From contig JBFLXB010000005.1 in assembly GCA_040757335.1 (NCBI GenBank), positions 62,001 through 126,000 on the forward strand: a stretch of 64,000 nt of DNA. Reading direction: 5' to 3'. This document shows positions 19,103 through 35,152 of this stretch, piece by piece (the stretch's first letter is position 1; the number at the start of each line of letters is the position of its first letter). The DNA is from Nitrospirota bacterium. GTDB lineage: Bacteria; Nitrospirota; Nitrospiria; 2-01-FULL-66-17. The position numbers and the translations under genes are program-made. Under the pieces are notes generated by a model. That model ran no database searches. It saw only the letters and a list, made by a program, of their open reading frames with translations, and had not been told where the DNA came from.

Positions 19103-19142
19103 GCTACGCCGACTTTTTCCAGCGGCATTGGGAGGGGCGAGC

Positions 19143-21857
19143 ATGATCGTGCACTTCGAGGAGGCTTTTCGAAGTCTGACCGGCTTTTCGCCCATGAGGT
19201 GGCAATGCCGGCTGTTCAAACGCTTCGTCGATAACGACTTACCGAAAGCGTGTGACATTCCGACCGGTCTCGGGAAGACCTCCGTCATGGTCATCTGGTT
19301 ATTAGCGCTTGCGCGGCAGGCCGAGGACGGACGAGTCCTCCTTCCAAGGCGTCTCGTTTATATCGTCAATCGGAGGACTGTTGTCGATCAGGCAACCGCC
19401 GTCGTGGAACGGATTCGCCACCGCCTCTTGGAGCCAGAGGCGCCTACATGGCAGGACCATGCCGATACGTTAAAAGGCATAGCGTCTGTCTTGTGCAGGA
19501 TTTGTGCTTCCGAAGAGGGCCCTATTGGCATCAGCACATTGCGCGGTGAGCTTGCTGACAACGAGGAGTGGAAGACCGATCCCACCCGTCCAGCGGTTAT
19601 TGTCGGCACCATTGACATAATCGGGAGCAAGCTACTCTTCTCCGGCTACGGTGACGGGCGCTACGGGCGTATACACCATGCGGGCCTGATTGGACAGGAC
19701 GCACTGATCGTGCACGACGAGGCACACTTGACACCAGCGTTCAGCGAACTCCTGCGGCGCATCGCGGATGAACAGGAGCGATCGAAAGAGCCTCGGCGTA
19801 TCCGAGTGATGGAGTTATCCGCTACACAGCGCGGCAACCATGCCGAGGCGTTCGAACTCGAACAGGACGATGAGACGTACGATGGGACGGGGCAGATCGT
19901 GAAACAGCGACTCGACGCGCAGAAGAGGCTGCACCTCCACAAATCCGATGATCTGGTCGCGGGTCTCGTGGAGCGGGCGTTGCATATCGAGACGCCTGCG
20001 AAGGTGCTTGTCTACATCCGCTCACCCGAAGATGCGCAGAAACTGGCCGACGCAATCAAGAAAGAGTTGGGTGACGCGGCTGGCGAGCGCGTGGCCCTGC
20101 TCACGGGCACGATCCGCGGATATGAGCGCGACCGGCTCGTTATAGAGAATCCCATATACCGGGCGTTGCTCGACCACGAGGCGCATGTTCCGCATTCCGT
20201 GTTCCTTGTGAGCACTTCAGCCGGCGAAGTCGGCATCGATCTTGACGCCGACTATTTGGTCTGCGATCTGACGACGCTCGACTCGATGATCCAGCGCCTG
20301 GGGCGGGTGAATCGCCGTGGTGGCGAAGGCCGTGAAGCGCGCGTGGACGCAGTGTGGACTGATGACGATGCGAAGGGCGGTGACAAGCCGTTCGAAAGGG
20401 CTGTCGCGAAAACGCTTGAGACTATCCAAGGGTGGATCAATGGGAATGGTGAGGGGCTCGGCTTGCTGGTCAGTCCGCGTCGCCTCAGGGTCTTGGTTGA
20501 GGGGCTGAGTGAAGTGGAGCGGGAAGCGGCGTTCTCACCCAAGCCCACGATTCCGCCCCTGACGGACATCCTGCTCGACAACTGGTCGCTCACGAGCATT
20601 GACAAGATGCCCGGCCGCCCGGAGGTCGCCGTTTTTCTCCATGGGTTGACGTTCGATCCGCCGGAGACCTATGTGGCATGGAGGCGCGAGGTGTCAATCC
20701 TGGACGACGCAGGTGTAGACGAAGCCTTGCTCCGTGACTGGTTCCGGGTTTGTCGCATCGACTCGCGGGAGAGGCTACGTGACCGAACAGGCCACGTGAA
20801 AAAGGCGCTGACGGCCCTGCTCAACAATCTGAGGAAGAAGGACAGCTCCCTCGACCTGCCAATCGTATTGCTCAATGCAAGCGGCGGCGCCACGTGGTCC
20901 CATCTGTCGGTTTTGGCGGACGATGACACCAATCTTGCCTACCGCACCGTCGTTTTGCCGATGGAGGCTGGCGGCCTGAACGAAAACGGCATGCTTGATC
21001 CTAAGAGAGAGCCGTCCTCGGCTCTTCCTTCCGACGTGGCCGAGGACAATGCAACCGACCGCCAGCGCGAGCGCTGGCTGCATCGCAGGTCGAGCGAAGG
21101 TGAGCAGTACGAACGGCTCGCCTCGGGTGAGGTGTTCGACGCCCTCCCGGATGAGCTACGAGAAAAAGTTCGCATACCTCTGCGCCAACCAGATGAAGCG
21201 GAGGACGGCGCCGAAACCCTCGATCTCGTTCTGCTTGTCGCCCCGGTGTTATCAGCGTTGGAAAACCCGGAGACCACTAGCGCCCGGCAGACGCTCGCCG
21301 CGCACACGGATGCGATCGTCGAGCACATGTCGCGTATTGCAGCCCGGCTGAACCTTGATGATCCAATTCGCACTGCACTGATTGCAGGCGCGCGCTGGCA
21401 CGACAAGGGCAAGGATCGCCCTGTATGGCAACGCTACGCACGCAATGGAAGGGGCGCTGAGCTTCTGGCCAAGGCGATACGCTACCTGCACCCGCGCGCG
21501 CTGGGCGGCTACCGCCATGAGTTCGGGTCGCTTCTGGACGCAATGAAAAGCGCGGAGCTGGGGGAGCTTCCCGAGCGCGAGCTCGTTCTTCACTTAATTG
21601 CTGCACACCACGGCTGGGCACGGCCTCACTTCGAACCGCGCTCCTTCGACAGCTCGTGCACGACGGCCGCCAACAACCAAACATTCTCGGAAGTCGTCCG
21701 CCGCTTCGGCCAGCTTCAGCAGCGCTTCGGCCGTTGGGGCCTGGCGTGGCTGGAATCACTGGTGCGCTGCGCAGACATCGCTGCGTCAAGGCATGCGGCT
21801 GCATCCACACGTGTCGGCAGCGAAAGAGAGTTTGTACCGGAGGAGGCGGAAGCGTGA
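19143..21857 (+). CDS. cas3: Cas3 helicase-nuclease, type I-G (helicase first, HD domain C-terminal)
   Basis: 904 residues. The SF2 helicase comes first: Walker A DIPTGLGKT near 38, HDEAH near 190, motif III SATQ, STSAGEVGIDL and QRLGRVNRRG near 383. The HD nuclease is at the C-terminus: RWHDKGKD near 750, HEFGS and AAHHGW near 819. That domain order, together with Csb1-3, is typical of type I-G (formerly I-U). ATG 19143 has GGAGGGG immediately upstream; in-frame ATGs at 19086 and 19092 overlap rmuC. It is recruited by the crRNA complex to unwind and degrade target DNA. The stop overlaps csb3 by four bases. Confidence 0.94.
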   Translation: MIVHFEEAFRSLTGFSPMRWQCRLFKRFVDNDLPKACDIPTGLGKTSVMVIWLLALARQAEDGRVLLPRRLVYIVNRRTVVDQATAVVERIRHRLLEPEAPTWQDHADTLKGIASVLCRICASEEGPIGISTLRGELADNEEWKTDPTRPAVIVGTIDIIGSKLLFSGYGDGRYGRIHHAGLIGQDALIVHDEAHLTPAFSELLRRIADEQERSKEPRRIRVMELSATQRGNHAEAFELEQDDETYDGTGQIVKQRLDAQKRLHLHKSDDLVAGLVERALHIETPAKVLVYIRSPEDAQKLADAIKKELGDAAGERVALLTGTIRGYERDRLVIENPIYRALLDHEAHVPHSVFLVSTSAGEVGIDLDADYLVCDLTTLDSMIQRLGRVNRRGGEGREARVDAVWTDDDAKGGDKPFERAVAKTLETIQGWINGNGEGLGLLVSPRRLRVLVEGLSEVEREAAFSPKPTIPPLTDILLDNWSLTSIDKMPGRPEVAVFLHGLTFDPPETYVAWRREVSILDDAGVDEALLRDWFRVCRIDSRERLRDRTGHVKKALTALLNNLRKKDSSLDLPIVLLNASGGATWSHLSVLADDDTNLAYRTVVLPMEAGGLNENGMLDPKREPSSALPSDVAEDNATDRQRERWLHRRSSEGEQYERLASGEVFDALPDELREKVRIPLRQPDEAEDGAETLDLVLLVAPVLSALENPETTSARQTLAAHTDAIVEHMSRIAARLNLDDPIRTALIAGARWHDKGKDRPVWQRYARNGRGAELLAKAIRYLHPRALGGYRHEFGSLLDAMKSAELGELPERELVLHLIAAHHGWARPHFEPRSFDSSCTTAANNQTFSEVVRRFGQLQQRFGRWGLAWLESLVRCADIAASRHAAASTRVGSEREFVPEEAEA

Positions 21858-22786
21858 GCCACCCCAATCCCAGCCTGAGCGTCAACGTGGATGTGACGAA
21901 TCCCGGCCAGTTCTTCGCTTGCTGCGGGCTACTGGAACTTGCGCACCGTTTGTGGCCCGGGGCGGAGGGATGGTTTGACCGGGATGGGCACATGTTTCAC
22001 GTTCACGCGTCGACAGACGACAAGTGCACGCTTCAAAGCGTCGTGGAGAGACTGACGAACGTCGGGATCGACGGCGAACTCTCGAACGAAGAGCGAGAGG
22101 AATTGAGGAATCTTGAGTCGAAGAAGCGGGCACTGAAGAAGGAGCGGAAATACCTTACCGAGATTGAGGGAGAGCGAAGAATGTCACTCGGCAAGCGACA
22201 ACGAGAAGGGGCGCTCTCAATTGGCGGCCCATTCAACCTCCGCATTGCGTGGTGGCAAGAAGACGGCGACGACGTGCCGAAGACCTTCGCTGGGAGGCAG
22301 GAAGTTCTCCGCATGGCGGTCGCCATGCTTTCGGAGGCTCGCAAAGCTGTCCACGACGATCGACCGCTGGAATACCGCTGTCTGCTGCGAGCTGCAGGGG
22401 ACGGCGAGCAACAGCAAGACGCGAAGGTCGAACCCTTTTTTTTCGATGCGGCAAGATTCGCCCACGCGCTCGATGCCGGATTCTCTCTGGATGTGCAGGA
22501 GCAGGCGATCAGGGCAACGGCTGCGGCACTCACTGAGTTCCTCGCTCTGATCGGTCTTCAGCGGTTTCGGCCCATCGTACAGGTGAGCAAGGAGCCGAGA
22601 ATCAAGGCGCTGGCTGACTACCTCACATGGCCTGTACCGTTTGGTCTCCCTCCGGCTGCAGCGGTCATCTCCGGGGCCGTCCCAGTTCCGGGGAGCCAGC
22701 GCTATCGCTTCGAGATTCGTGCTCGGGATGACCAGAAACGGTACGGAGCATTCAGCTTCGCAACCCCTATCGGAGGTGACGCATGA
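21854..22786 (+). CDS. csb3: Csb3, type I-G Cascade subunit (Cas8u2-like)
   Basis: 310 residues. The opening NVDVTNPGQFFACCGLLELA is the characteristic start of the Csb3 family, thought to serve as the large (Cas8-like) subunit of type I-G effectors. A charged helical region near 75-110 and a C-terminal YRFEIRARDDQKRYGAFSF follow. GTG 21854 overlaps the cas3 stop and has GGAGG upstream. The stop overlaps the csb1 ATG, making cas3-csb3-csb1-csb2 one tightly coupled unit. Confidence 0.88.
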   Translation: MSHPNPSLSVNVDVTNPGQFFACCGLLELAHRLWPGAEGWFDRDGHMFHVHASTDDKCTLQSVVERLTNVGIDGELSNEEREELRNLESKKRALKKERKYLTEIEGERRMSLGKRQREGALSIGGPFNLRIAWWQEDGDDVPKTFAGRQEVLRMAVAMLSEARKAVHDDRPLEYRCLLRAAGDGEQQQDAKVEPFFFDAARFAHALDAGFSLDVQEQAIRATAAALTEFLALIGLQRFRPIVQVSKEPRIKALADYLTWPVPFGLPPAAAVISGAVPVPGSQRYRFEIRARDDQKRYGAFSFATPIGGDA

Positions 22787-23946
22787 GCAAAGACAAGGTG
22801 GATCTGAACCACTTCGACGACTGGCTGAAGGACGACAGCAATGTTGCAGCGCTGGCGTTACGCCAGTGGCTCGATCCGGTTGAGGGTAAGGACGCCGTGA
22901 TCTTCCCGCCGACGTACACATTGGACCGTACGGATGCCGGCAATCGCTTCAACAAGGGCGAGGCTGTTCCCGGCGTCTACAAGGGCCTGAAGGGGCCGAT
23001 GGGTTACAACCTCGACTATTTCGAGGACGGTTCCAGCGTATGCCAGATCGACAGCGTGGGTTCGCAGGCCAATCGGATGGAGCCAATCTTTAAGCGCGAC
23101 GGCTACAGAGGTCTCGTGCCGGAAGTGACCATCCAAGCGGGCGAAAAGCGTGTCAACCTACTTGAGGCCGGGCACCGTGCGGCGGATGCGATCGTCAGGT
23201 TCTCTGACTTGGCGAAGGAACTGCAGGCCGCCTTCCTTGCGGTGCGAAACGGCGATGCAACCCGGTTGGCAAAGATTGCTCCGACGTCTCTCGTGTTTGG
23301 GGCCTGGGACTCTCGCGACACGGAGGTCAAACTGCCGCGAATTGTGCGTTCAGTTATTCGGGCGTACAACGTGAAACCACAACACCGGTCGGCTCAGTAC
23401 ATTCCGGTCCTCAACTATGTTAACGAAGGCTTGCTGGACGCGCCGGAAGGTGAACAGCAGCAAGACGCGATGTCGCAACTTGGGCTAAGTCATGCTCCAG
23501 CCCCTTGGTCACACGGTGGAGTCTTGGTCGAGCGAGAGATTCGGCGTGACGCAACGCTGAATCTCGTCGCGCTTCGTGCGCTCCGCGCCAGTAGGGCTAG
23601 TGACACGCTCCCACTGCGCCGTTACATCTTGGGGTTGTCGCTGGTTTCATTCACAGCGCCACAGGAGACCTTCTTGCGTGAGGGATGCCAACTGGTGCCC
23701 GACGTAGAGCGCCCCGGAAAATGGTCTCTCATTCGACACGACGGCAGTCGCGAGGACAACTTTACCGTGTCGCACGAGCAGGCTTCGGACTACGCAAAGG
23801 CGGTGGCCGAAGCCTTCGGCGTGGGCCCGAAGAGAGAGGCAACATTCAATGCTGGGACCGCCCGAGAGGACCTGGGCCAGTCCAAAGAGGAACGCAAGAA
23901 GTCGCGCAGAAAGAAGAGCAGCAGCGCCGGCGAAGCCGAGTCATGA
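22783..23946 (+). CDS. csb1: Csb1, type I-G Cas7 backbone subunit
   Basis: 387 residues of the Csb1 (GSU0053-like) Cas7 family, which polymerises along the crRNA. Diagnostic segments are IDSVGSQANRMEPIF, SLVFGAWDSRDTEVKLPRIV and APAPWSHGGVLVEREIRRDA. The last 30 or so residues are strongly basic (ERKKSRRKKSSS) and could bind nucleic acid, which is inference. It overlaps csb3 and csb2 by four bases each. Confidence 0.93.
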   Translation: MSKDKVDLNHFDDWLKDDSNVAALALRQWLDPVEGKDAVIFPPTYTLDRTDAGNRFNKGEAVPGVYKGLKGPMGYNLDYFEDGSSVCQIDSVGSQANRMEPIFKRDGYRGLVPEVTIQAGEKRVNLLEAGHRAADAIVRFSDLAKELQAAFLAVRNGDATRLAKIAPTSLVFGAWDSRDTEVKLPRIVRSVIRAYNVKPQHRSAQYIPVLNYVNEGLLDAPEGEQQQDAMSQLGLSHAPAPWSHGGVLVEREIRRDATLNLVALRALRASRASDTLPLRRYILGLSLVSFTAPQETFLREGCQLVPDVERPGKWSLIRHDGSREDNFTVSHEQASDYAKAVAEAFGVGPKREATFNAGTAREDLGQSKEERKKSRRKKSSSAGEAES

Positions 23947-25430
23947 TGCGGTACCATCTATGCATCTCGGTCACACTCCTCGATACGCTCTTCCACGGCA
24001 AGGGCGATGGCGAAGTGCCAGAGTGGCCGCCGTCGCCGATGCGCCTGGTCCAAGCGCTTGTGGCTGGTTCGCGCTCTGGATGCCGAAATGGGGAGTGGTC
24101 GGAGGCCAAGGCCGAGGCCTTCCGCTGGATTGAGCGCCGTGAACCCCCGGTGATTATCGGGCCGGCGGCCGAGCGTGCCGCAGCGTACACGCTCTTTGTG
24201 CCGAACAACGACTCGGATAAAAAGTTCGACCGCCAGGATCGTCTGACTTCCAAGGTTGTTCGGCCACATCGAACGGCGAACGGTAGCTCAGCGACGAAGG
24301 GTGGAGGGACACTCCATTACCTTTGGACGATCTCGGAAAGCGAGTGGTCCGGCGCCAGCAGCCACGCGGAAATCCTTTGCCGCGAGGCACGCCACTTGAT
24401 GGCGCTCGGCTGGGGCATAGATCAGGCAGTAGCCGATGGTCGTGTCCTCACCGATACCGAAGCGGCAGCACTCCCGGGCCGGCGCTGGCGAGGGTGGCAC
24501 ACACACCGTCCCGGCCAACAACGATCGCGGATTCCTATTGAAGGCTCGCTGAATGACATGGAAATGGTCCACGCATCGTTCATGTCTCGGATTAACGGGA
24601 ACCGCTTCAATCCGCCGCGCAAGCTTAAGCGATATGAATACATCGCTTATCTCAGCGCAAACACATTGCCACCGAGACCGTATGCCGTCTTCGAACTGCC
24701 TGATGGTGGCGCATTCCGCCAGGAGGATGCCGCCGCCGTTGCGGCGATACTGCGGTCGCTTGCGTGCCGATGCGCCAAGGACGATTCTCACGAGTTTCCC
24801 AGCGGGTCGGAGATGTACGTCGCTGGCCACAGCAAAGCTGGCGAGGCGCCTGGAAACGGTTCCAGTACACTGCGATTCTCGTATCTCCCTCTTCCAACGA
24901 TCGGCCACGAACATGCCGACGGCATGATCCGCCGCGTGCTCATAGCAGAGCCCTTCGGAGGTGATGGGGCGCACGCCCGATGGGCGCAACAGCGTCTGCG
25001 GAATCAGCTCCTGCGTGACCACGATGGGAACGAACGGGGAATCCTTCTGAACCTTTGGCGAAACAGTTCATCTGCGATAGTCGATAGATACGTTGGGGAG
25101 CATAAGAACTGGGCCAGCGTTACTCCCGTAATCCTGCCCGGCTTCGACGACGGGAAGCGCATCAAGGCCGAAAGACTCTTCCTTCAAGCCGTACGACAGG
25201 CCGGCCTGTCTCTGGATGGCGTCGCGGATTTCACGTTCCGCAAGGCGCCCTTCTGGTCTGGTTCACAGCATCCCAACTGTTACCGCCGTCCTGACTACCT
25301 GGACTCGGCGAAAAACCGGCGGTTTTCCGCTTGGCATGTCCACCTGTCGTTCCGCGAGCTGATGGCCGGCCCCATATCGATCGGAGCAGGGAGACACTGC
25401 GGTCTGGGGGTCTTCGCTGCAAGCGGGTAG
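23943..25430 (+). CDS. csb2: Csb2, type I-G Cas5-Cas6-like subunit
   Basis: 495 residues (GSU0054-like). The N-terminal RAMP strand YHLCISVTLLDTLFHG and EWPPSPMRLVQALVAG are typical of Csb2. The C-terminal glycine-rich loop GPISIGAGRHCGLGVF is the RAMP signature of Cas6-type processing subunits. Csb2 is regarded as combining crRNA processing and 5'-handle binding. Two consecutive ATGs (23943, 23946) overlap the csb1 stop. It is the last gene of the interference operon; adaptation genes come only 1.5 kb later. Confidence 0.92.
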   Translation: MMRYHLCISVTLLDTLFHGKGDGEVPEWPPSPMRLVQALVAGSRSGCRNGEWSEAKAEAFRWIERREPPVIIGPAAERAAAYTLFVPNNDSDKKFDRQDRLTSKVVRPHRTANGSSATKGGGTLHYLWTISESEWSGASSHAEILCREARHLMALGWGIDQAVADGRVLTDTEAAALPGRRWRGWHTHRPGQQRSRIPIEGSLNDMEMVHASFMSRINGNRFNPPRKLKRYEYIAYLSANTLPPRPYAVFELPDGGAFRQEDAAAVAAILRSLACRCAKDDSHEFPSGSEMYVAGHSKAGEAPGNGSSTLRFSYLPLPTIGHEHADGMIRRVLIAEPFGGDGAHARWAQQRLRNQLLRDHDGNERGILLNLWRNSSSAIVDRYVGEHKNWASVTPVILPGFDDGKRIKAERLFLQAVRQAGLSLDGVADFTFRKAPFWSGSQHPNCYRRPDYLDSAKNRRFSAWHVHLSFRELMAGPISIGAGRHCGLGVFAASG

Positions 25431-25489
25431 GAGGGCCGTCTGTGCTAATGGGGTTCTAGTCTGGATCGGATCGACGTGAATGGGATGAG

Positions 25490-25546
25490 GTGACGAAGGA
25501 TGAGCGTTATGACGTCTCGGGATTTGCTTGAGCCCAATTTGAGGAG
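25490..25546 (+). pseudogene. Broken 5' fragment of a Fic gene, paralogous to the intact one
   Basis: GTG 25490 begins a frame reading TKDERYDVSGFA, stop, AQFE. This parallels the intact gene's TDGRYDVSGLPEAQFE, with an in-frame TGA in place of the codons around Glu. The bases upstream also match the leader of the intact gene (GGATCGnnTCGnCGTGAATGGG in both). It is a duplicated and decayed start, cut off after about 57 bases. Confidence 0.7.
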
Positions 25547-25638
25547 AACCGAAAAGGTGGCAGGAACCGGGTCCGGCCCGCAGAGCCGGGTTTGACCTCA
25601 CGACGTTGAATGGCGTGCCCGCGATGTGGAGTTGATTC

Positions 25639-25872
25639 ATGCAGACGTTTCGCCAATTTGCCGCCAAGCCTGAGACCGTGCTGCTGACCACGGCCTGGTA
25701 TCTCGCAGATCTGGGCGAGGCGCGGGGGCGGCAGGAGTTGTTCACGAAGCAGGCGCCGCAGCGGTTGCGCGTGTTGCGCGAGCATGCGTTGATCGAAAGC
25801 GCGGTGTCGTCCAATCGGATCGAAGGGGTGGTGGACCAGGCTCGGGTTGGTAGTACCGGATCGATTGGGTAA
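25639..25872 (+). pseudogene. N-terminal fragment of a class II Fic protein
   Basis: 77 codons. LLTTAWYLADLGEARGRQELF and LRVLREHALIESAVSSNRIEG are the Fic N-terminal region, with SNRIEG matching the [ST]xxxE[GN] inhibitory helix that blocks ATP in class II Fic enzymes. The frame then ends without a catalytic HPFx[DE]GNGR domain. It is a different Fic subfamily from the neighbours, cut off after its inhibitory helix. It may still be translated, since the ATG and frame are intact. Confidence 0.65.
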
Positions 25873-25959
25873 TGAATTGGGTAGGGAACGAAAGGTGAGA
25901 ATCGACAGGTGCAGGAACCGTTTCTGGTCCGGATCGTATCGCCGTGAATGGGAGGTGAC

Positions 25960-26601
25960 GTGACTGACGGGCGATACGATGTTTCGGGGTTGCCCGAGGC
26001 TCAATTTGAGCCCGGTTCGGGTGATACCGTCCTGAAAAACTTGGTCGGGATCACGTCGAAGCAAGCGATGGACGACGCAGAGGCTAAGGCCCTCGAACGC
26101 GCAACGGAGTGGGCGATCGGGACGTTCGATGTCACACATCGCTTTACCGCATCTGATGTCTGTGGGATGCATCGAGTCTGGCTCGGGGAGATCTACGAGT
26201 GGGCGGGACGGTATCGGCGGGTCAATGTCAGCAAAGGCGAGGTTCTATTTGCCGTTGCCGCTCAGATTCCTGCGCTCATGGCGGAATTCGAACAAGGACC
26301 GTTGCGCCGTCATACGCCGTGCAATGTCACCGGCCGATCTGCCGTGGCGCGCGCGCTGGCAGAGGTGCACACGGAGTTGGTGTTGATTCATCCGTTTCGC
26401 GAGGGAAACGGGCGGGTGACACGGCTGCTCTCGACGCTGATGGCGTTACAGGCCGGTTTGCCGTTGCTCGATTTCCAGGTGATCGCAGGCGAAAAGAAGG
26501 GCGCGTACTTTGAAGCGGTGCGGGCCGGACTCGACCGAGATTATGAACCGATGGCGCGGATCTTTGGGGAGATTATCGAGCGGAGCGGCGCCGCTTCGTG
26601 A
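25960..26601 (+). CDS. Fic family protein (AMP-transferase type)
   Basis: 213 residues with the complete catalytic motif HPFREGNGRVTR near residue 144, and the upstream TVLKNLVGITSKQAMDDAEA and IYEWAGRYRRVNVSKG of stand-alone (class I-like) Fic proteins. Such enzymes AMPylate target proteins and act as toxins held by a small antitoxin carrying [ST]xxxE[GN]. The protein itself lacks an N-terminal inhibitory helix. GTG 25960 has GGAGG five bases upstream; ATG 25948 is possible. It lies between the interference and adaptation cas genes and overlaps a convergent small ORF by 29 bases. Confidence 0.88.
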   Translation: MTDGRYDVSGLPEAQFEPGSGDTVLKNLVGITSKQAMDDAEAKALERATEWAIGTFDVTHRFTASDVCGMHRVWLGEIYEWAGRYRRVNVSKGEVLFAVAAQIPALMAEFEQGPLRRHTPCNVTGRSAVARALAEVHTELVLIHPFREGNGRVTRLLSTLMALQAGLPLLDFQVIAGEKKGAYFEAVRAGLDRDYEPMARIFGEIIERSGAAS

Positions 26602-26764
26602 GGCGATCGATGCCTTCCGAACTGGTCAGCATTCGCGCGATGGATTCCACGGAGGCCCCCGTTTCGACGGCGGTTGAACTGGACACGTTGGTGACCAGCG
26701 CCTTCCGGTACGCTGCGCGGTCTCGGAGATAAGGATTGGTTTCGACCAGGGGGCGTTTCAACAT
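26573..26764 (-). CDS. Small protein, possible Fic antitoxin, convergent with fic
   Basis: 63 residues, basic. The opening RPLVETNPYLRDRAAYRKAL followed by VSSSTAVETG resembles small proteins with an S-x-x-x-E helix like that used by Fic antitoxins; here the residue after Glu is Thr, not Gly/Asn. It is encoded opposite the fic gene, tail to tail and overlapping by 29 bases, rather than upstream of it. AT-rich sequence precedes its ATG. Whether it is an antitoxin is inference; the coding call itself is moderate. Confidence 0.45.
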   Translation of the reverse strand: MLKRPLVETNPYLRDRAAYRKALVTNVSSSTAVETGASVESIARMLTSSEGIDRLTKRRRSAR

Positions 26765-26927
26765 AAGTTCATTTTAACATAAAGGGCTGTGTAAGAGACC
26801 GACGGTTGGTCGATGCGAGGGTGCATTACGATAGTTCCGATCGGTTTGGCGGAACAAGGGTAATACCTCCAGAAAGGGCAAGAAAGCGGGTAACAAGGGC
26901 TCCGGGAGGCCGAGAGCCGGTGTAGCG

Positions 26928-26980
26928 GGTCCGCTTTGTCGGACCGCCGTTCTTTGACAACTGAATAGGAGTATTCCTAT
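26928..26980 (+). promoter_or_regulatory. Hairpin and dyad over the cas4-cas1 ribosome site
   Basis: GGTCCG (26928-26933) pairs with CGGACC (26940-26945) around a six-base loop. Then ATAGGAGTATTCCTAT (26965-26980), a 14-of-16 dyad, contains both the AGGAG ribosome site and the first two bases of the ATG. Either may set translation of the adaptation operon. No promoter boxes with good spacing were seen between 26780 and 26978. Confidence 0.4.
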
Positions 26981-28658
26981 GGATGCAGCGACTGATTCCG
27001 CGGCAGGGGCGGAGGAGGTGCCGCCCCTGCCGGTTCGGATGCTGAACGAGTACACGTACTGCCCGAGGCTTGGCTACCTCATGTGGGTGCAGGGGGAGTT
27101 TATGGACTCGGCTGATACGGTGGATGGGCGGTTTCAGCATCGGCGCGTGGATCAGGAGAAGAAGCGGCGGATCTCGCGGCGGGCGCCCGTCGATGACGGG
27201 CCGGTGACCATCCATGCGCGGTCGGTCTCGTTGGCGTCGGATCGGCTGGGATTGGTCGCGAAGATCGATTTGGTCGAGGGCGAATGCAACCGCGTGACGC
27301 CGGTCGACTACAAACGGGGCAAGCGACCCCACATCCCCAAGGGCGCGTGGGAGCCGGAGATGGTGCAGTTGTGCGCGCAGGGGTTGATTCTGCGCGACAA
27401 CGGTTTTGAGTGCGGGGAGGGCGTGCTGTACTTCGCCGCCTCGCGCGAGCGGGTGCCGGTCGTCTTCGATGGGGCGTTGATCGCACGCACGCTGGAGCTG
27501 GTCGATCTGATGCGCAAGGCCGCACGCGAAGGCGTGGTGCCGCCGCCTTTGGTGGACAGTCCGAAGTGTCCTCGCTGCGCGCTCGTCAGCATTTGTTTGC
27601 CCGACGAGGTGACGTTTCTTCAGTCTCAGGCCCACGAGCCACGGCCGCTCTTCCCCTCCCGCGACGACGCGTTGCCGTTCTACGTCCAGCACCAAGGCGC
27701 CAGAGTGAGGAAAGACGGAGACGTACTCAAGATCATGGAGCGTGACGAGCTGTTGGCGGAGGGGCGGTTGCGCGAGATCTCCCAACTCGTCCTCTTTGGA
27801 GGCGTGCAGGTGAGTACCGGCGTGATCCAAGAGCTCTGCAAACGCGGGATTCCAATGACGTATCTCTCGGGCGGCGGCTGGTTTTACGGCGTGACCCACG
27901 GGATGAGCCACAAGAACGTGGAGCTGCGCCGCCATCAGTACCGAACTGCGACGGACGCTTCCCGAAGTCTGGTACTCGCGCGCCGGTTCGTGCAGGCGAA
28001 GATCGCCAATTGCCGCACATTGCTGCGGCGCAATGCGAGTACCGTGCCGGAAGACGTGCTGGATGATCTGAAAGGCGACATGCGCCGCGCCGGTGAAGCG
28101 CCCACAATGGAGACATTGTTGGGGGTCGAAGGCAACTCGGCCCAGCGATATTTTTCATGGTTCTCGTCCATGCTCGCGAACGGAATGGGCTTTGCGTTCG
28201 AGCATCGCAACCGGCGGCCCCCCAAGGATCCGGTTAACGCCCTGCTCTCGCTGGCCTACGCCATGTTGGCCCGGGAATGGACGACGACGTTATTGGCGGT
28301 GGGGTTTGATCCGTATCTCGGGTTCTATCACCAGCCCCGTTATGGACGCCCCGCGCTGGCCTTGGATCTGATGGAGGAGTTTCGGCCGTTGATCGGGGAC
28401 TCCGCGGTGATCACGGCCATCAACAATGAAGAGATTCGACGGAGAGATTTCATCGAGACCTTGGGCGCCGTCGCGCTTACGCCGGTCGGCCGGAGCCGGT
28501 TTATCGAAGTGTACGAGCGCCGGATGAGCCAGGAGATTACGCACCCGGTCTTCGGCTACACCATCAGCTACCGGCGGGTGTTGGAAGTCCAGGCAAGGTT
28601 GCTCGGGCGGCATCTGGCCGGTGAGATTCCCGAGTATCCCTCGTTTACCACGCGGTAG
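26979..28658 (+). CDS. cas4-cas1: Cas4-Cas1 fusion protein
   Basis: 559 residues. The Cas4 part (about 1-210) has Cys28 in YTYCPRLG, the RecB-type KIDLVEG and VDYKRGK, and a cysteine trio CPRCALVSIC near 197-206, giving four [4Fe-4S] ligands. The Cas1 integrase part (about 220-559) has LVLFGGVQVSTGVIQELC, the glutamate in VEGNSAQRYFSWF near 383, GFYHQPRYGRPALALDLMEEF with the histidine and acidic ligand near 450-464. Such fusions are standard in type I-G and couple PAM-aware trimming to spacer integration. cas2 starts two bases after the stop. Confidence 0.96.
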   Translation: MDAATDSAAGAEEVPPLPVRMLNEYTYCPRLGYLMWVQGEFMDSADTVDGRFQHRRVDQEKKRRISRRAPVDDGPVTIHARSVSLASDRLGLVAKIDLVEGECNRVTPVDYKRGKRPHIPKGAWEPEMVQLCAQGLILRDNGFECGEGVLYFAASRERVPVVFDGALIARTLELVDLMRKAAREGVVPPPLVDSPKCPRCALVSICLPDEVTFLQSQAHEPRPLFPSRDDALPFYVQHQGARVRKDGDVLKIMERDELLAEGRLREISQLVLFGGVQVSTGVIQELCKRGIPMTYLSGGGWFYGVTHGMSHKNVELRRHQYRTATDASRSLVLARRFVQAKIANCRTLLRRNASTVPEDVLDDLKGDMRRAGEAPTMETLLGVEGNSAQRYFSWFSSMLANGMGFAFEHRNRRPPKDPVNALLSLAYAMLAREWTTTLLAVGFDPYLGFYHQPRYGRPALALDLMEEFRPLIGDSAVITAINNEEIRRRDFIETLGAVALTPVGRSRFIEVYERRMSQEITHPVFGYTISYRRVLEVQARLLGRHLAGEIPEYPSFTTR

Positions 28659-28660
28659 CG

Positions 28661-28951
28661 ATGCGGCATCTGTACGTGGTCACGTACGATATATCGAGTC
28701 CCAAACGCTGGCGACGGGTGTTTCGGACGATGCGGGGTTTCGGCGACCATCTGCAACTCTCCGTGTTCCTCTGCGACCTGCCGCTGATGGAGCGCGTGCA
28801 GATGCAGGCGCTCCTGCACGAGATCATCCATCACGAAGAGGACAAGGTAATGATCGTCGACCTCGGGCCAACCGAAGGGCGCACGATTCAAAGTATCGAG
28901 ACGATTGGCATTCCCGTGGAGATTACAAAACGGGGGCCCCAAGTGGTCTGA
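28661..28951 (+). CDS. cas2: Cas2
   Basis: 96 residues; ferredoxin fold beginning LYVVTYDISSPKRWRRVF, with the metal-site aspartate after beta-1, then LQLSVFLCDL and the C-terminal strand EITKRGPQVV. It bridges Cas1 dimers in the spacer-integration complex. It lies directly before the leader and array. Confidence 0.95.
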   Translation: MRHLYVVTYDISSPKRWRRVFRTMRGFGDHLQLSVFLCDLPLMERVQMQALLHEIIHHEEDKVMIVDLGPTEGRTIQSIETIGIPVEITKRGPQVV

Positions 28952-28955
28952 TTTG

Positions 28956-28975
28956 CCGCTCGTTGGTGCGAGCGG
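28956..28975 (+). terminator. Hairpin after cas2
   Basis: CCGCTCG, loop TTGGTG, CGAGCGG: a perfect 7-bp stem starting five bases after the cas2 stop. There is no T-run, so it may only slow or protect the transcript end. Confidence 0.45.
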
Positions 28976-29128
28976 TTCAGTGCGAGAAGAAAGTCTGAAC
29001 GGCATGCGGCCAGGGTGTTGAGTTTCGGGGATTACCGTGGAAAGGGAGGGAGGATGCAGAGAGAAATCGGAAAGCGCTCGCAAATGCCTTTAGAGGATAT
29101 CGAAATATCAGATAAATTCCAGGGTGCT
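28976..29128 (+). promoter_or_regulatory. CRISPR leader
   Basis: The stretch between cas2 and the first repeat contains no gene and becomes AT-rich toward the array (29085-29120). It includes GATAT-CGAA-ATATC (29096-29109) and should hold the array promoter and the Cas1-Cas2 docking site. The distal end is defined by the one variant repeat, so the leader is on this side. Confidence 0.75.
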
Positions 29129-31925
29129 GTTTCCGCGGTCTCACAGCCGCGGCCTCATTGAAGCTTTCGGAGTCGCCGCGCCAAGCAACGCGCGAGTGCA
29201 GGTTTCCGCGGTCTCACAGCCGCGGCCTCATTGAAGCGACTGGAAGGCCGGAAAAATCTCGATCCGAGGGCGACGTTTCCGCGGTCTCACAGCCGCGGCC
29301 TCATTGAAGCCACTATCATCCCAAGTGTCTCGGGATCTATCTACACGTTTCCGCGGTCTCACAGCCGCGGCCTCATTGAAGCAGTATATCAAGATCATGG
29401 ACGGGACCGCGGACAGCGGTTTCCGCGGTCTCACAGCCGCGGCCTCATTGAAGCGATCTTACCATCGACAAGCACAAAGAGGCGTCTTTCGTTTCCGCGG
29501 TCTCACAGCCGCGGCCTCATTGAAGCTGAATGTCAAGATAATCTCCAGTATCTCGGTTGACACGTTTCCGCGGTCTCACAGCCGCGGCCTCATTGAAGCA
29601 ACTGGTGTGTTGAAAGCGTCTGCATCTAGCGGTCCTCGTTTCCGCGGTCTCACAGCCGCGGCCTCATTGAAGCATAGAACTCGTGGAAATTATCAAGAAT
29701 AACATCGAGGTTTCCGCGGTCTCACAGCCGCGGCCTCATTGAAGCCTGCCACAGGTCTTATCAATGGAGGAAATCAAAGTGCACGTTTCCGCGGTCTCAC
29801 AGCCGCGGCCTCATTGAAGCTGTCCGCATTGTGAAAAACTTGGAGTAGGGTACGTCCGTGTTTCCGCGGTCTCACAGCCGCGGCCTCATTGAAGCTTGTG
29901 TTTGCTACCCATTCTCATCGTCGCACCCCCTGTTTCCGCGGTCTCACAGCCGCGGCCTCATTGAAGCGTGGTTTACACCGTTAGGCCGCGGGCCGATTGA
30001 GCCGGTTTCCGCGGTCTCACAGCCGCGGCCTCATTGAAGCATACCGGGGGTCGCCGCACACGATTCCTTGGCGTCGTTTCCGCGGTCTCACAGCCGCGGC
30101 CTCATTGAAGCTGGGACTAAAAAAAAAAGCGGGAGGCCTGTTGTCGGTTTCCGCGGTCTCACAGCCGCGGCCTCATTGAAGCGATCACCATCTTAGCAGA
30201 ATATTTCGCGAAGGAAGAAGGTTTCCGCGGTCTCACAGCCGCGGCCTCATTGAAGCTATCGCGACGTGTCGAGAATGGTATCCTCCGGCCGCATGTTTCC
30301 GCGGTCTCACAGCCGCGGCCTCATTGAAGCTTCGTCGTTAATCGCTCAATCCGGAGAGGAAAACATGTTTCCGCGGTCTCACAGCCGCGGCCTCATTGAA
30401 GCCTCGGCCTGACCTATCTGCCGGAGCACCAACTGTGGGTTTCCGCGGTCTCACAGCCGCGGCCTCATTGAAGCCACTCCTCCGACAGCGACGATTCGTA
30501 GGCCGTGATCGTTTCCGCGGTCTCACAGCCGCGGCCTCATTGAAGCGCGGCCCCAGCGCGTCCCAGACGGCCCCCGCGACGCGGTTTCCGCGGTCTCACA
30601 GCCGCGGCCTCATTGAAGCCATCACCGCATGGCCGTTGAGAGGACGATCCGCCCGGGTTTCCGCGGTCTCACAGCCGCGGCCTCATTGAAGCCCGATTGG
30701 CCAGACACCACTGGCGGCATTTGCCATACGTTTCCGCGGTCTCACAGCCGCGGCCTCATTGAAGCCGGGCCGCCCTGGCCGGTGATGTGGGTGAACAGCA
30801 ACGTTTCCGCGGTCTCACAGCCGCGGCCTCATTGAAGCCCCGCACTGCTGCAATCCGTGATCTCGCGGCACGGCTCGTTTCCGCGGTCTCACAGCCGCGG
30901 CCTCATTGAAGCATGGTGGCGGTAATGTCGGTCTTGCTCATCTGGTCGGTTTCCGCGGTCTCACAGCCGCGGCCTCATTGAAGCGGAAGCGCTCTCCCTC
31001 CAGCCGCATCGAATTGTTTGGTTTCCGCGGTCTCACAGCCGCGGCCTCATTGAAGCCAGGCACGCTCGGAATCCGCCACAACCGCCTCATAGTTTCCGCG
31101 GTCTCACAGCCGCGGCCTCATTGAAGCGCCTCGACCTGCGCCTTTGTCGGCGCGCGGCTTACGCGTTTCCGCGGTCTCACAGCCGCGGCCTCATTGAAGC
31201 ACGCTGAAAACGCCGTTCCTGTTGGCGCGGCGGGTGGGTTTCCGCGGTCTCACAGCCGCGGCCTCATTGAAGCCCGACCTCTTGCCGGAGCGATTCGCGG
31301 GCGCGGTCGGGTTTCCGCGGTCTCACAGCCGCGGCCTCATTGAAGCGGGCAACCGGAAGTGCTCGCGCCCCGTCAGCATCAGCGTTTCCGCGGTCTCACA
31401 GCCGCGGCCTCATTGAAGCCGTTTCCCCGCCCGCTCTGGGCGCGAGTGAACCGAGTTTCCGCGGTCTCACAGCCGCGGCCTCATTGAAGCCACTTCATTG
31501 AGTTTCCCGTTCGTGATCGCATCGACAGTTTCCGCGGTCTCACAGCCGCGGCCTCATTGAAGCAATACCAACATGCTGACGCGGCCGATCCTGGTCAACG
31601 TTTCCGCGGTCTCACAGCCGCGGCCTCATTGAAGCTTCAAGCCCGGCTGTCGGTGCGGATCGTAGGGCGTCTGTTTCCGCGGTCTCACAGCCGCGGCCTC
31701 ATTGAAGCTGTGGGATTTGCTGGAAAACGATCCGCGGTGAGGGCAGTTTCCGCGGTCTCACAGCCGCGGCCTCATTGAAGCGACGCCCCGCTGCTGAACG
31801 GCGCGCGGCCGTGCGGCGTTTCCGCGGTCTCACAGCCGCGGCCTCATTGAAGCGTGACCCCGCGATGCGAGATCAGATAATTACTCCTAGTTTCCGCGGT
31901 CTCACAGCCGCGGCCTCATTGAAAC
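29129..31925 (+). CRISPR. CRISPR array, 39 repeats and 38 spacers (type I-G)
   Basis: A 36-base repeat starting GTTTCCGCGG and ending CATTGAAGC recurs with a 71-75 base period; spacers are 35-39 bases. Repeat starts run from 29129 (first) through 29202, 29275 and 29347 to 31818 and 31890 (last). The first 38 repeats read identical; the last ends GAAAC instead of GAAGC, marking the distal end. CCGCGG pairs with itself across the loop TCTCACAG as the crRNA-processing hairpin. Spacers 3-11 are mostly AT-richer than later ones (spacer 8 has 12 G/C in 36, spacer 20 has 32 in 37). Apparent ORFs through the array are repeat translations. Confidence 0.98.
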
Positions 31926-32225: not shown

Positions 32226-32410
32226 GAGGCTGTTGATAACCGGCCATCTGCAGCGTTGTCGCCCCTTAGGTGCCACGGCCGCCTCACCGTCTCGGCGGCG
32301 CTCGTGGCTCGGCGCCCCTTCCTCGGGGCGCCACTCGCCTCACGTACGACCCAGTACGCTGCGGTGCGGTTCTCGCTTCGCCTTGCATCTGACCGGTTCT
32401 GAACAGCCTC
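32226..32410. repeat. Dispersed inverted-terminus element, copy 3
   Basis: 185 bp. Ends GAGGCTGTT and AACAGCCTC are perfect 9-bp inverted repeats. The core CACGTACGACCCAGTACGC and the right part TTGCATCTGAC are shared with the other copies. About 65 extra bases (near 32265-32335) sit in what would be a loop. It exactly fills the gap between two convergent genes: the left end abuts the DUF3553 stop (TAA, 32223-32225) and the right end shares bases with the bioD stop (32409-32411, minus strand). Confidence 0.85.
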
Positions 32411-33212
32411 ACGTTGTCTGACGATGCGACAACGCTTGAGACGGTCTGATCAGACTGTCTAGAAACCCGGTCCGCTCCAGATTCCTTCCGATCGTTTCCC
32501 ATGCGGTCTCCTTCGCCCTGAGGTAGGGCACCACAGCCCAGGCTGGAAGCTCTAGTAGTTCTTTAAGGATGTGTGGGTTGGTGCGGATTGCCTCGTCCTG
32601 GGCCTGACTGGTCTGATTGATCACCCCGCCTAAGAACTTGAGCCCGTGCGCTTTGGCGACTTGGACCGTCAGCAGGGCGTGGTTGATCGCGCCGAGTTTG
32701 TTGCCGATGACCAAAAGAAGAGGGAGGCCAAGGGCTCGCGCCAAGTCCAAAGTCGTCGTGAGGTAGGTCCCCCGCATTCGGCTGAAATCCCCCCATCCCC
32801 CCTTTGTCAAAGGGGGGCAAGGGGGGATTTTACCAATGCTGAGTGGGACCATTAGTCCGCCCACACCCTCGACCACAACGATGTCGTGTCGGCTTGCGAG
32901 GCGGTGGAAGCGTTGAACGATCGTTGCGAGGGAGATGCGGGTGCGTTGACGCCGCGCCGCAACCAGGGGGGCAAGGGGTGGGCCAAAGCGGTAGGGGCTG
33001 ATATCGGTCAGCGGATCAGAGGAGCCGGCGACCCGGCGCAGGAGTTCCGCGTCGGCGTGAGCCCCTCCTGCGACACCGCTCTCGACCGGCTTCATCACGC
33101 CGACATCGAGGCCCCGGCGCCGCAGCGCCCAAACCAGCCCCGCGGAGACAAGGGTTTTCCCCACTCCTGTATCCGTGCCTACGACAAAGACGCCTCGTGA
33201 TCGCTTGGTCAT
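32409..33212 (-). CDS. bioD: Dethiobiotin synthetase with inserted repeat peptide
   Basis: 267 residues. Forms the ureido ring of dethiobiotin from DAPA, CO2 and ATP. P-loop GTDTGVGKT, MKPVESG, EGVGGLMVPL, DLARALGLPLLLV and GGVINQ are intact. Between VPLSI and TYLTTTLDLA an extra proline/glycine-rich segment of about 20 residues (KIPPCPPLTKGGWGDF) is encoded by a palindromic repeat. I took ATG 33212 (MTKRSRGVFVVG). It is the last gene of bioF-SDR-bioD. Confidence 0.93.
   Translation of the reverse strand: MTKRSRGVFVVGTDTGVGKTLVSAGLVWALRRRGLDVGVMKPVESGVAGGAHADAELLRRVAGSSDPLTDISPYRFGPPLAPLVAARRQRTRISLATIVQRFHRLASRHDIVVVEGVGGLMVPLSIGKIPPCPPLTKGGWGDFSRMRGTYLTTTLDLARALGLPLLLVIGNKLGAINHALLTVQVAKAHGLKFLGGVINQTSQAQDEAIRTNPHILKELLELPAWAVVPYLRAKETAWETIGRNLERTGFLDSLIRPSQALSHRQTT
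32785..32830. repeat. 46-bp palindromic repeat inside bioD
   Basis: Left arm AAATCCCCCCATCCCCCCTT and right arm AAGGGGGGCAAGGGGGGATTT pair almost perfectly around a short TGTCAA centre. Such C-run/G-run palindromes are usually intergenic; here it is read in frame within bioD near residue 128-143. Confidence 0.85.
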
Positions 33213-33216
33213 GGGC

Positions 33217-33963
33217 TCAGAGAGTCCCCGCCGGGATGCGGCTATCCATGACAAAGATCTGCCCCGAGATCCACGGGAGCGAAAGGATCGAGAACATCGT
33301 GTCAGCCGCGTCCTCTGGTGAAATGACCCCGGGGATCAGTTGTTGCTCGCGGAGAGTCTCTGCGGTTGCGCCGACGGACTCGGTATCCAGCACGGGCGGG
33401 CACACGGCGTTGACGCGGATGTTGTCCGGTCCCAGCTCGCGGGCCGAACTCCGGGTGAACGCGATCAGGCCGGCTTTGGCCGCGCTGTAGGCGCTCTGGC
33501 CGCGGCGGCCTTGCAGCGCGGCGATCGAGGACACGTTCAGGATCGCCCCGCCGCGTTGTCTGGCCATCACAGGGGCAACGGCCTGGGTGGCGCGCCAGGC
33601 TGCGGTGAGGTCGGTGGCGATCACGCGATCCCACGCGTCATCGGGCGTCGAGACGACCAGACGATCATCCACCACGCCGGCGTTGTTCACCCACGCATCG
33701 ATCCGTCCCCAATGGGTCACGGTCTGCTCGACGATCTGTGGAAAGGTCCCTGGGATGGTGACGTCCGCTTGAAGGACCAGGGCGCGGCCGCCAGCCTCGA
33801 TGATGGCCTTGGCAACTGCCTCTGCCTCGGCGCGCCGCGTGCGGCAGTGCACGACCACGCGCCAGCCCGCACGGCCGCAACGCAACGCGATCGCGCGACC
33901 CAGGCCGCGCGAGGAACCGGTGACGACGATAACCGGCGGGGCTGACGCGTCAGATGACGCCAA
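33217..33963 (-). CDS. SDR family oxidoreductase (FabG-like) in the biotin operon
   Basis: 248 residues. Rossmann motif VTGSSRGLGRAIA, NNAG, and the catalytic Ser and YSAAK (NVSSIAALQGRRGQSAYSAAK region), with a C-terminal ISGQIFVMDS. It resembles 3-oxoacyl-ACP reductases. Lying between bioF and bioD it may reduce an intermediate of pimeloyl synthesis; no bioC or bioH is visible. The TTG start at 33963 overlaps the bioF end by 14 bases, and the stop is four bases from bioD. Confidence 0.85.
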   Translation of the reverse strand: MASSDASAPPVIVVTGSSRGLGRAIALRCGRAGWRVVVHCRTRRAEAEAVAKAIIEAGGRALVLQADVTIPGTFPQIVEQTVTHWGRIDAWVNNAGVVDDRLVVSTPDDAWDRVIATDLTAAWRATQAVAPVMARQRGGAILNVSSIAALQGRRGQSAYSAAKAGLIAFTRSSARELGPDNIRVNAVCPPVLDTESVGATAETLREQQLIPGVISPEDAADTMFSILSLPWISGQIFVMDSRIPAGTL

Positions 33964-35152
33964 GTTGTTTGGCGACCCGTTCGAGCGCCGACAAGGCGAG
34001 CCCGAGGTCGTCGGGCGTGTGCGTCGCGAGGATTGAGGTCCGCAGGCGTGCGGTGCCGGCGGGCACGGTGGGCGGTCGGATCGCGGGGGCGAACACGCCC
34101 TCCTCCATTAACGCCGACGCCATCTGAACGGCGCGCGCGTCGGCTCCGATCCGAAGCGGGATGATGGGCGAGGCGCTGCCCAAGGTGTCGAATCCCATCT
34201 TACGCACGCTGTCGTGCCAGATGTGGCGGTTGGCCCAGAGGCGTTCGCGGCGCTCGGGTTCGTCTTCCAGCACGCGAATCGCTTCCAGCGAGGCGGCTGC
34301 GATCGCGGGAGGCAGGGCCGTGGTGTAGATGAATGTGCGGGCGCGGTTGACCAGATAGTCGATCAAGACTTTGGGGCCTGCAACAAACCCCCCGAGTGCG
34401 CCGAGCGCTTTACTCAGGGTGCCCATCTGGATGATCGGGCGGTCGCGCAGGTTCCAATGCTCGGACGAGCCCGTGCCCCGGGCACCGAACACGCCGGTGG
34501 CATGGGCGTCGTCGACCAGGAGCATCGCGTCATATTGCTCGGCGAGTACCACCAGGTCGGGCAGTGGCGCGAGGTCGCCTTCCATGCTGAACACGCTGTC
34601 GGTCACGATCAGCGCGCGGCCGTTTGGTGCACGGCGCTTCAACAGAGTCCGGAGTTGATCCAGCCGGTCGCGCCGATAGATCCGGAACCGGGCGTTGCTG
34701 GCCCGGCATCCGTCGATCAGGCTGGCATGGCAGTCGCGATCAGCCAGGATCAGATCGTCCCTCCCGACCAATGACGGGATGATGCCCAAGTTGGCCTGGT
34801 ACCCGGTGCTGAACACCAGCGCGGCCTCGGTGCCCTTGAGGCGAGCCAGCGCGGCCTCCAGTTTTTCATGTTCCGGGCTGTTCCCCGTCAACAGGCGCGA
34901 GGCCCCCGCGCCCACTCCTTCGCGCTCGATCACGCGAATGGCCGCGGCCTTGACGCGCGGGTGCTCGGCCAAGCCCAAGTAGTTGTTGGACCCGAAGTTG
35001 ACCAGAGTGCGCCCGTTCCACACGAACCGCGGCCCCACGCCTCCTTCGATGGTCCGGAGCACGCGAAGTCTGTCTGCCTTCCGTACACGCTCCAGCTCTT
35101 GCCGATAAGGAGCGAAGAGGTCACGCGTGGGGCTGAACGGGGATCGGACCAC
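33950..35152 (-). CDS. bioF: 8-amino-7-oxononanoate synthase
   Basis: 400 residues, PLP-dependent alpha-oxoamine synthase joining pimeloyl-thioester and L-alanine. VNFGSNNYLGLA, GAGASRLLTGN, DRDCHASLIDG, DSVFSMEGD, VDDAHATGVFG and the PLP lysine region GTLSKALGALGG are present. Members of this fold also make KBL or serine palmitoyl products, but the bioD neighbour supports BioF. It begins the minus-strand biotin operon; no promoter stands out in the 30 bases before the element at 35182. Confidence 0.92.
   Translation of the reverse strand: MVRSPFSPTRDLFAPYRQELERVRKADRLRVLRTIEGGVGPRFVWNGRTLVNFGSNNYLGLAEHPRVKAAAIRVIEREGVGAGASRLLTGNSPEHEKLEAALARLKGTEAALVFSTGYQANLGIIPSLVGRDDLILADRDCHASLIDGCRASNARFRIYRRDRLDQLRTLLKRRAPNGRALIVTDSVFSMEGDLAPLPDLVVLAEQYDAMLLVDDAHATGVFGARGTGSSEHWNLRDRPIIQMGTLSKALGALGGFVAGPKVLIDYLVNRARTFIYTTALPPAIAAASLEAIRVLEDEPERRERLWANRHIWHDSVRKMGFDTLGSASPIIPLRIGADARAVQMASALMEEGVFAPAIRPPTVPAGTARLRTSILATHTPDDLGLALSALERVAKQLGVI

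Follow-up and report, generated by a model that had tools for sequence, protein, structure and literature searches.

The bioD gene of this Nitrospirota genome contains, within its reading frame, a 46-bp palindrome that is one copy of a dispersed repeat family and not a chance sequence. Very probably, this copy belongs to a repeat of the class II intrastrand-triplex type that was inserted into the gene and has been tolerated there by virtue of its open reading frames, a net gain that is a multiple of three, and a landing place in a protein loop. Positions below refer to the window, the stretch of 64,000 nucleotides that was analysed.

The palindrome and the predicted added loop in BioD

The element lies at 32785-32830, reads AAATCCCCCCATCCCCCCTTTGTCAAAGGGGGGCAAGGGGGGATTT in full, and is built as a AAATCCCCCC / CCCCCCTTT hairpin AAAGGGGGG / GGGGGGATTT. 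It is given no strand; an inverted-repeat search, DNA folding, a triplex register and a covariance model match all point to it. The inverted repeat has 21-nt arms of 86% complementarity separated by 4 nt, and as single-stranded DNA it folds with -19.9 kcal/mol (z = -5.05 against shuffled sequences). Its 19-nt core pattern occurs in one place in the window, where both strands match, with 0.01 occurrences expected per shuffled window. The original prediction of a 46-bp palindrome at this place, inside an in-frame BioD of 267 residues and encoding the peptide KIPPCPPLTKGG, is borne out on each of these points, the length of 267 being counted from an ATG at residue 15 of a 281-residue frame that opens with TTG.

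The bioD gene itself (dethiobiotin synthase; 32409..33254, minus strand) is uninterrupted. Its product matches TIGR00347 with 145.4 bits (cut-off 83.3) as well as the Pfam family PF13500, and it retains all 26 invariant columns of a 43-row alignment composed of the window protein and 42 other BioD sequences. It is the sole bioD above cut-off in this 3.56-Mb, 99% complete genome. On the same strand lie bioF and, between it and bioD, an SDR-family (FabG-like) gene at 33217..33963 (minus strand), an ORF whose NCBIfam matches are below their cut-offs; bioF encodes 8-amino-7-oxononanoate synthase, at 33950..35152 (minus strand; TIGR00858, 459.8 bits, cut-off 426.45). Directly downstream of bioD, a GC-rich stretch with short repeats (32240-32420) resembles another dispersed repeat. 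Farther off, ORF translations at 18717-29702 indicate an apparent type I CRISPR-Cas locus, with what we take to be a Cas3-like helicase, further cas-like genes and a Cas4-Cas1-like fusion. An apparent repeat array lies near 29304-29702, where RGLTAAASLK recurs in translation, and one ORF amid the cas-like genes, at 25948-26601, contains the Fic-like motif HPFREGNGR.

Homology to BioD is broken off between residues 139 and 166. The nearest BioD in the collections searched, from genome G001 (57% identity over the whole alignment, 62% over residues 16-139; locus L115, identical to the BioD of L031, 'Nitrospirae bacterium NC_groundwater_959'), reads GGLMVPLT-PTH-TTLALAE where the window protein reads GGLMVPLS, 27 residues, then TTLDLAR, a surplus of 24 residues or about 72 bp in the window. 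G001 matches residues 16-139 and 166-272 of the window protein, and in G001 only 6 bases separate the two matching stretches. Measured against L115/L031 and the 42 other BioD, the net insertion amounts to some 24 codons, covering residues 140-163 in the 281-residue frame (32766..32837, minus strand), with limits that are uncertain by a few codons. The segment is missing from all 63 other BioD ORFs compared, the nearest relative included (80 loci, 17 of which failed the P-loop pattern or length), which makes it lineage-specific. The predicted 46 bp is therefore right as the length of the palindrome and too short as the gain. Since 46 is not divisible by three, the frame is kept only jointly with some 26 further bp that the palindrome does not account for; the collections searched contain no closely related empty bioD site, the nearest BioD being only 57% identical, so that the junctions can be placed only approximately. 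An imperfect inverted repeat flanking the bioD copy was considered as a trace of template switching and rejected, as 7% of cross pairs equal its score. The nearest relative has a weaker copy of the palindrome at the 3' end of its own bioD (L208; G001:C69:26963-26998).

An AlphaFold2 model built with the 43-row alignment is confident overall (pLDDT 86.8, pTM 0.85, most core blocks above 90) and has E. coli BioD (1dbs) as its best structural match (Z 29.7, rmsd 1.9 over 220 residues); a single-sequence model was poor (pLDDT 49) and was set aside. When mapped onto this well-predicted fold, the insert falls in a predicted low-confidence loop (pLDDT below 50 at residues 152-159, block means of 62 and 48 over 141-160) joining predicted beta strands 137-142 and 163-167.

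A dispersed repeat that enters genes in frame

Across the genome the strict pattern gives 22 forward and 18 reverse matches, the reversed-pattern control none, and a covariance model built from five copies gives 85 matches (both strands counted), with 23 in G001 and 74 in a second relative, G002. The bioD copy, at 78.7 bits, scores among the highest of the family. Within 33 genome stretches and the window we counted 43 hairpin cores at 34 sites, which is a minimum for the genome, 25 of them single and nine double, the double sites consisting of two half-palindromes in inverted order with unrelated sequence between them. One composite site with identical flanks is common to this genome and G002 (L189, L225) and is located between NuoK-type and NuoL-type genes.

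Seven in-frame insertions, in six conserved genes, were found among the 34 sites: in bioD, hypF (TIGR00143), uvrA (TIGR00630, above cut-off; two sites), a UvrD/PcrA-like helicase gene, lhr and the gene of a copper-type P-type ATPase. They emerged when element-spanning ORFs were scanned with Pfam and NCBIfam, five being also compared to PDB sequences; 30 ORFs were scanned in this GC-rich genome and its relatives, and many that belong to no family were left uncounted. The gain is 16 residues in the UvrD-like helicase relative to an empty site in G001 (75% identity), 35 residues at the first UvrA site relative to an empty site in G007 (79% and 77% identity on its two flanks), roughly 32 in HypF relative to G001, with the element also missing in G007 and G004, and roughly 33 in the P-type ATPase in a PDB alignment with 7r0g. 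In Lhr it is only about 9 residues, measured against one homologue. The second UvrA site looks like a replacement, because the half-element there brings almost no gain in length (about 17 residues, 16 in G007). At the first UvrA site, G004 has its own loop, 31 residues long; this loop, which corresponds to the element-holding one, contains AATCCCCCTTTTAAT (L240) and is possibly a decayed copy. The hypF gene of G002 holds a copy about 6 nt away from the position used here, so that two genera have the element at nearly the same place (L172, L221) and G001 lacks it, by parallel insertion or by loss. An FeS-DmsC fusion was dropped as an in-frame target, its homologues in G009 and G006 starting after the insert (residues 179 and 216), and in three further ORFs, with aminotransferase (L188), DUF559 (L184) and SDR (L223) domains, the element precedes the domain and is probably not coding.

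Beyond this genome, 73 of the 295 Nitrospirota genomes scanned have the strict pattern and none has a control match; the pattern also occurs in 6 of 16 genomes reached through their BioD loci, both Methylomirabilota genomes among them, and in 21 stretches of 19 viral contigs. In-frame copies, whose genome-wide count the original prediction proposed, turned up both here and in distant relatives. A more extreme case is G268, a distant Nitrospirota genome that belongs to a different family (41% GC in the stretches examined). Of the 21 sites sampled there, 16 are read in frame within 13 long ORFs (at least 200 residues, with at least 40 on either side of the element), all 13 with a Pfam family. 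Its targets are a NiFe hydrogenase, a LarC-type nickel insertion protein, HemC, an M23 peptidase, a ManC-type enzyme and a CobB/CbiA-type enzyme, and further an amidohydrolase (two copies), a multihaem cytochrome, ferrochelatase (two), DapF, PrmC, PurL (two) and TonB, several of these gene names being our interpretation of Pfam families. The M23 peptidase, the cytochrome and TonB are less certain targets, since their named domains do not include the element; in HemH, DapF and HemC the added stretch is visible in PDB alignments. Several enzymes of G073 carry the insert, including LpxK and an integrase, although the sites sampled there were mainly selected single ones, and in G305 one copy separates the catalytic from the anticodon domain of a valyl-type tRNA synthetase. 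In G029, which belongs to the class of the window genome, none of 29 sites falls in an ORF of at least 200 residues. The view that the palindrome usually sits between genes accordingly holds only in part, with seven insertions in conserved genes at 34 sites here and 16 of the 21 sites sampled in G268 within long ORFs.

Likeness to known repeats and mode of spread

By its layout, judged from the sequence, the element matches the class II intrastrand triplex motifs (TM, earlier called PIT; Holder et al., 2015, PMC4666352, as described in the available part of that paper). Such motifs comprise a C-rich stem of 9 nt, a loop of 3-6, a G-rich stem of 9, a loop of 3 and a second G-rich strand of 9; the element has CCCCCCTTT-GTC-AAAGGGGGG-CAA-GGGGGGATT, that is 9-3-9-3-9, on the plus strand, and nine of nine triads are allowed ones (G.G, A.A or T.A) on each strand, the second loop on the minus strand being 2 nt long. 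It is also dispersed in many copies as triplex motifs are (34 genome sites, none with the reversed-pattern control). The E. coli motif has the same 9-3-9-3-9 arrangement of C-stem, loop, G-stem, 3-nt loop and third G-strand, and it too occurs in many copies and inverted pairs with no link to mobile elements, to judge from the accessible text (PMC4666352). However, the E. coli motif (consensus CCCTCNCCC...GGGNGAGGG) is always intergenic according to the same text, whereas our element has other arm sequences and enters genes in frame.

Rickettsia palindromic elements, reportedly the subject of Ogata et al. 2000 and of Claverie and Ogata 2003, are the obvious precedent for such behaviour. As far as the available part of a review goes, they are 105-146 bp long and occur both in intergenic DNA and, in frame, inside conserved protein genes (PMC2229807). 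The likeness proposed in the original prediction extends to this behaviour, seen here in bioD, hypF, uvrA, the uvrD-like gene and the P-type ATPase gene, but not to membership, as the present element is shorter at 46 bp, has another sequence and resides in Nitrospirota. Repetitive extragenic palindromes (REPs) with GTAG/CGTC tags also occur inside genes, uvrA and UvrD/Rep genes included, as short single or paired palindromes in free-living bacteria (Di Nocera et al., 2013, PMC3733652, in the portion available). The element differs from these in that both tetranucleotides, GTAG and CGTC, are absent from both strands of its 46 bp, and its C6/G6 arms end in AAATCC...GGATTT with no tag. Recurrent G-quadruplex/triplex sequences of Methanomicrobiaceae resemble it as dispersed G-run/C-run repeats capable of an antiparallel triplex, but they are archaeal, of different sequence and, in the part of the paper at hand, mostly non-coding (PMC8044849). 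The literature searched, from which most subscription papers were missing, contains no account of this element in frame. The triplex layout and in-frame palindromes were thus each known already; what is new is a triplex-type palindrome living in frame in genes.

How the element spreads is a matter of conjecture: our guess is that it may be copied as a single-stranded hairpin, whether during replication or through a Y1 (RAYT-type) transposase that acts in trans. At the ends of 28 full copies, direct repeats are at most 5 nt and no longer than in cross pairs, and this apparent lack of target duplication fits both replication copying and a Y1 transposase. The Y1 transposase has eight matches in this genome and 12 in three genomes, and none of ten Y1 loci examined among these 12 contains the element. 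The matches of this IS200-like/RAYT type cluster in G000, with four on contig C34 and three on C4.

It is possible, if on the whole doubtful, that the element is a REP or MITE moved by a transposase, simply another REP family in which the triplex layout is incidental. A dispersed palindrome that occurs alone or as inverted pairs around unrelated spacers would suit such an origin, as would the eight Y1 matches and the precedent of in-frame REPs reported for uvrA, UvrD/Rep and further genes (Di Nocera et al., PMC3733652, available portion); against it stand the missing GTAG or CGTC tag, the ten Y1 loci devoid of a copy and the apparent absence of target duplication among the 28 full copies. We hold just as tentatively the idea of spread by replication errors, in which templates are switched at a stable hairpin or triplex and no dedicated enzyme takes part. 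The apparently missing target duplication, the replacement at the second uvrA site almost without length gain, the hypF genes of two genera hit at nearly one site, and the tie between triplex motifs and genomic instability (Holder et al., PMC4666352, within the text available) all favour template switching. Such switching would, however, not easily explain how a 46-bp sequence reached dozens of loci unrelated to one another.

Probable tolerance of the insertions and their significance

The palindrome has probably been kept in bioD for three reasons: the copy reads without a stop codon in five of six frames, the net gain is a multiple of three, and the loop between two beta strands would tolerate a Pro/Gly/Lys-rich peptide (IPPCPPLTKGGWGDF). 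Frame use over the family is consistent with tolerance of this kind. For 32 in-frame cores in 25 ORFs (half-elements and second cores included, and a few of the ORFs uncertain), the codon phases are 14/4/14, with 14.7/2.7/14.7 expected if stop-free frames are used equally. These counts fit random landing followed by loss of the insertions that create stops; a frame bias reflecting selection on the peptide was rejected, since the number of open frames explains them. A search of ORFs can reveal in-frame cases only. In a small test, the ORFs flanking 18 other element sites, on one side or on both, were searched with Pfam, and we found no gene broken out of frame; both flanks were tested at 11 of the 18, and the seven with families on both sides always had different ones. 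Out-of-frame insertions have presumably been purged by selection.

We think it improbable that the hairpin has been retained for an RNA or DNA function such as mRNA stability or regulation, beyond mere tolerance. The RNA fold across 106 nt is very stable (z -5.43), yet the target genes share no clear function, stop-free frames alone account for frame use, and a terminator-like site is not predicted at the element.

HemC, purL and dapF are essential genes in most bacteria. That they carry the same type of insert, together with an intact bioD frame, 26 of 26 invariant positions, and the status of this gene as the only bioD above cut-off, near bioF, makes it very unlikely that bioD is a pseudogene in waiting with a recent, inactivating insert, even if the high score of its copy (78.7 bits) may mean that the copy is young. 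An inserted and tolerated triplex-type repeat remains the reading we prefer, and the lengthened BioD, as far as its sequence tells, probably still works.

According to the available parts of the sources (PMC2229807, PMC3733652, PMC4666352), palindromes in frame have been described chiefly in Rickettsia and in a number of REP-rich bacteria, and the triplex motif of E. coli has been recorded solely in intergenic DNA. The Nitrospirota element joins the two, in-frame palindrome behaviour and triplex motif. With it, conserved enzymes gain loops derived from a DNA repeat, of roughly 16 to 35 residues plus two smaller cases, and peptides in protein databases such as NPPxPPFxKGGxGGF may be footprints of a DNA repeat. 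As related bacteria carry the same type of insert in other basic enzymes, the insertions look like a natural means by which proteins acquire extra loops. They amount to a natural experiment on loop tolerance, and they make the spread of short palindromes testable.

More speculatively, and in our estimate rather unlikely, the palindrome could act as a genome-wide linker-insertion agent in Nitrospirota, whose in-frame landings in loops are almost always tolerated and whose repeated targeting of repair genes (uvrA twice, the uvrD-like gene, lhr) hints at a coupling to replication or repair; repair genes are struck repeatedly by unrelated REP families elsewhere, too. If this were true, most surviving copies in some lineages would lie in frame in housekeeping enzymes, in proportion to stop-free frames.
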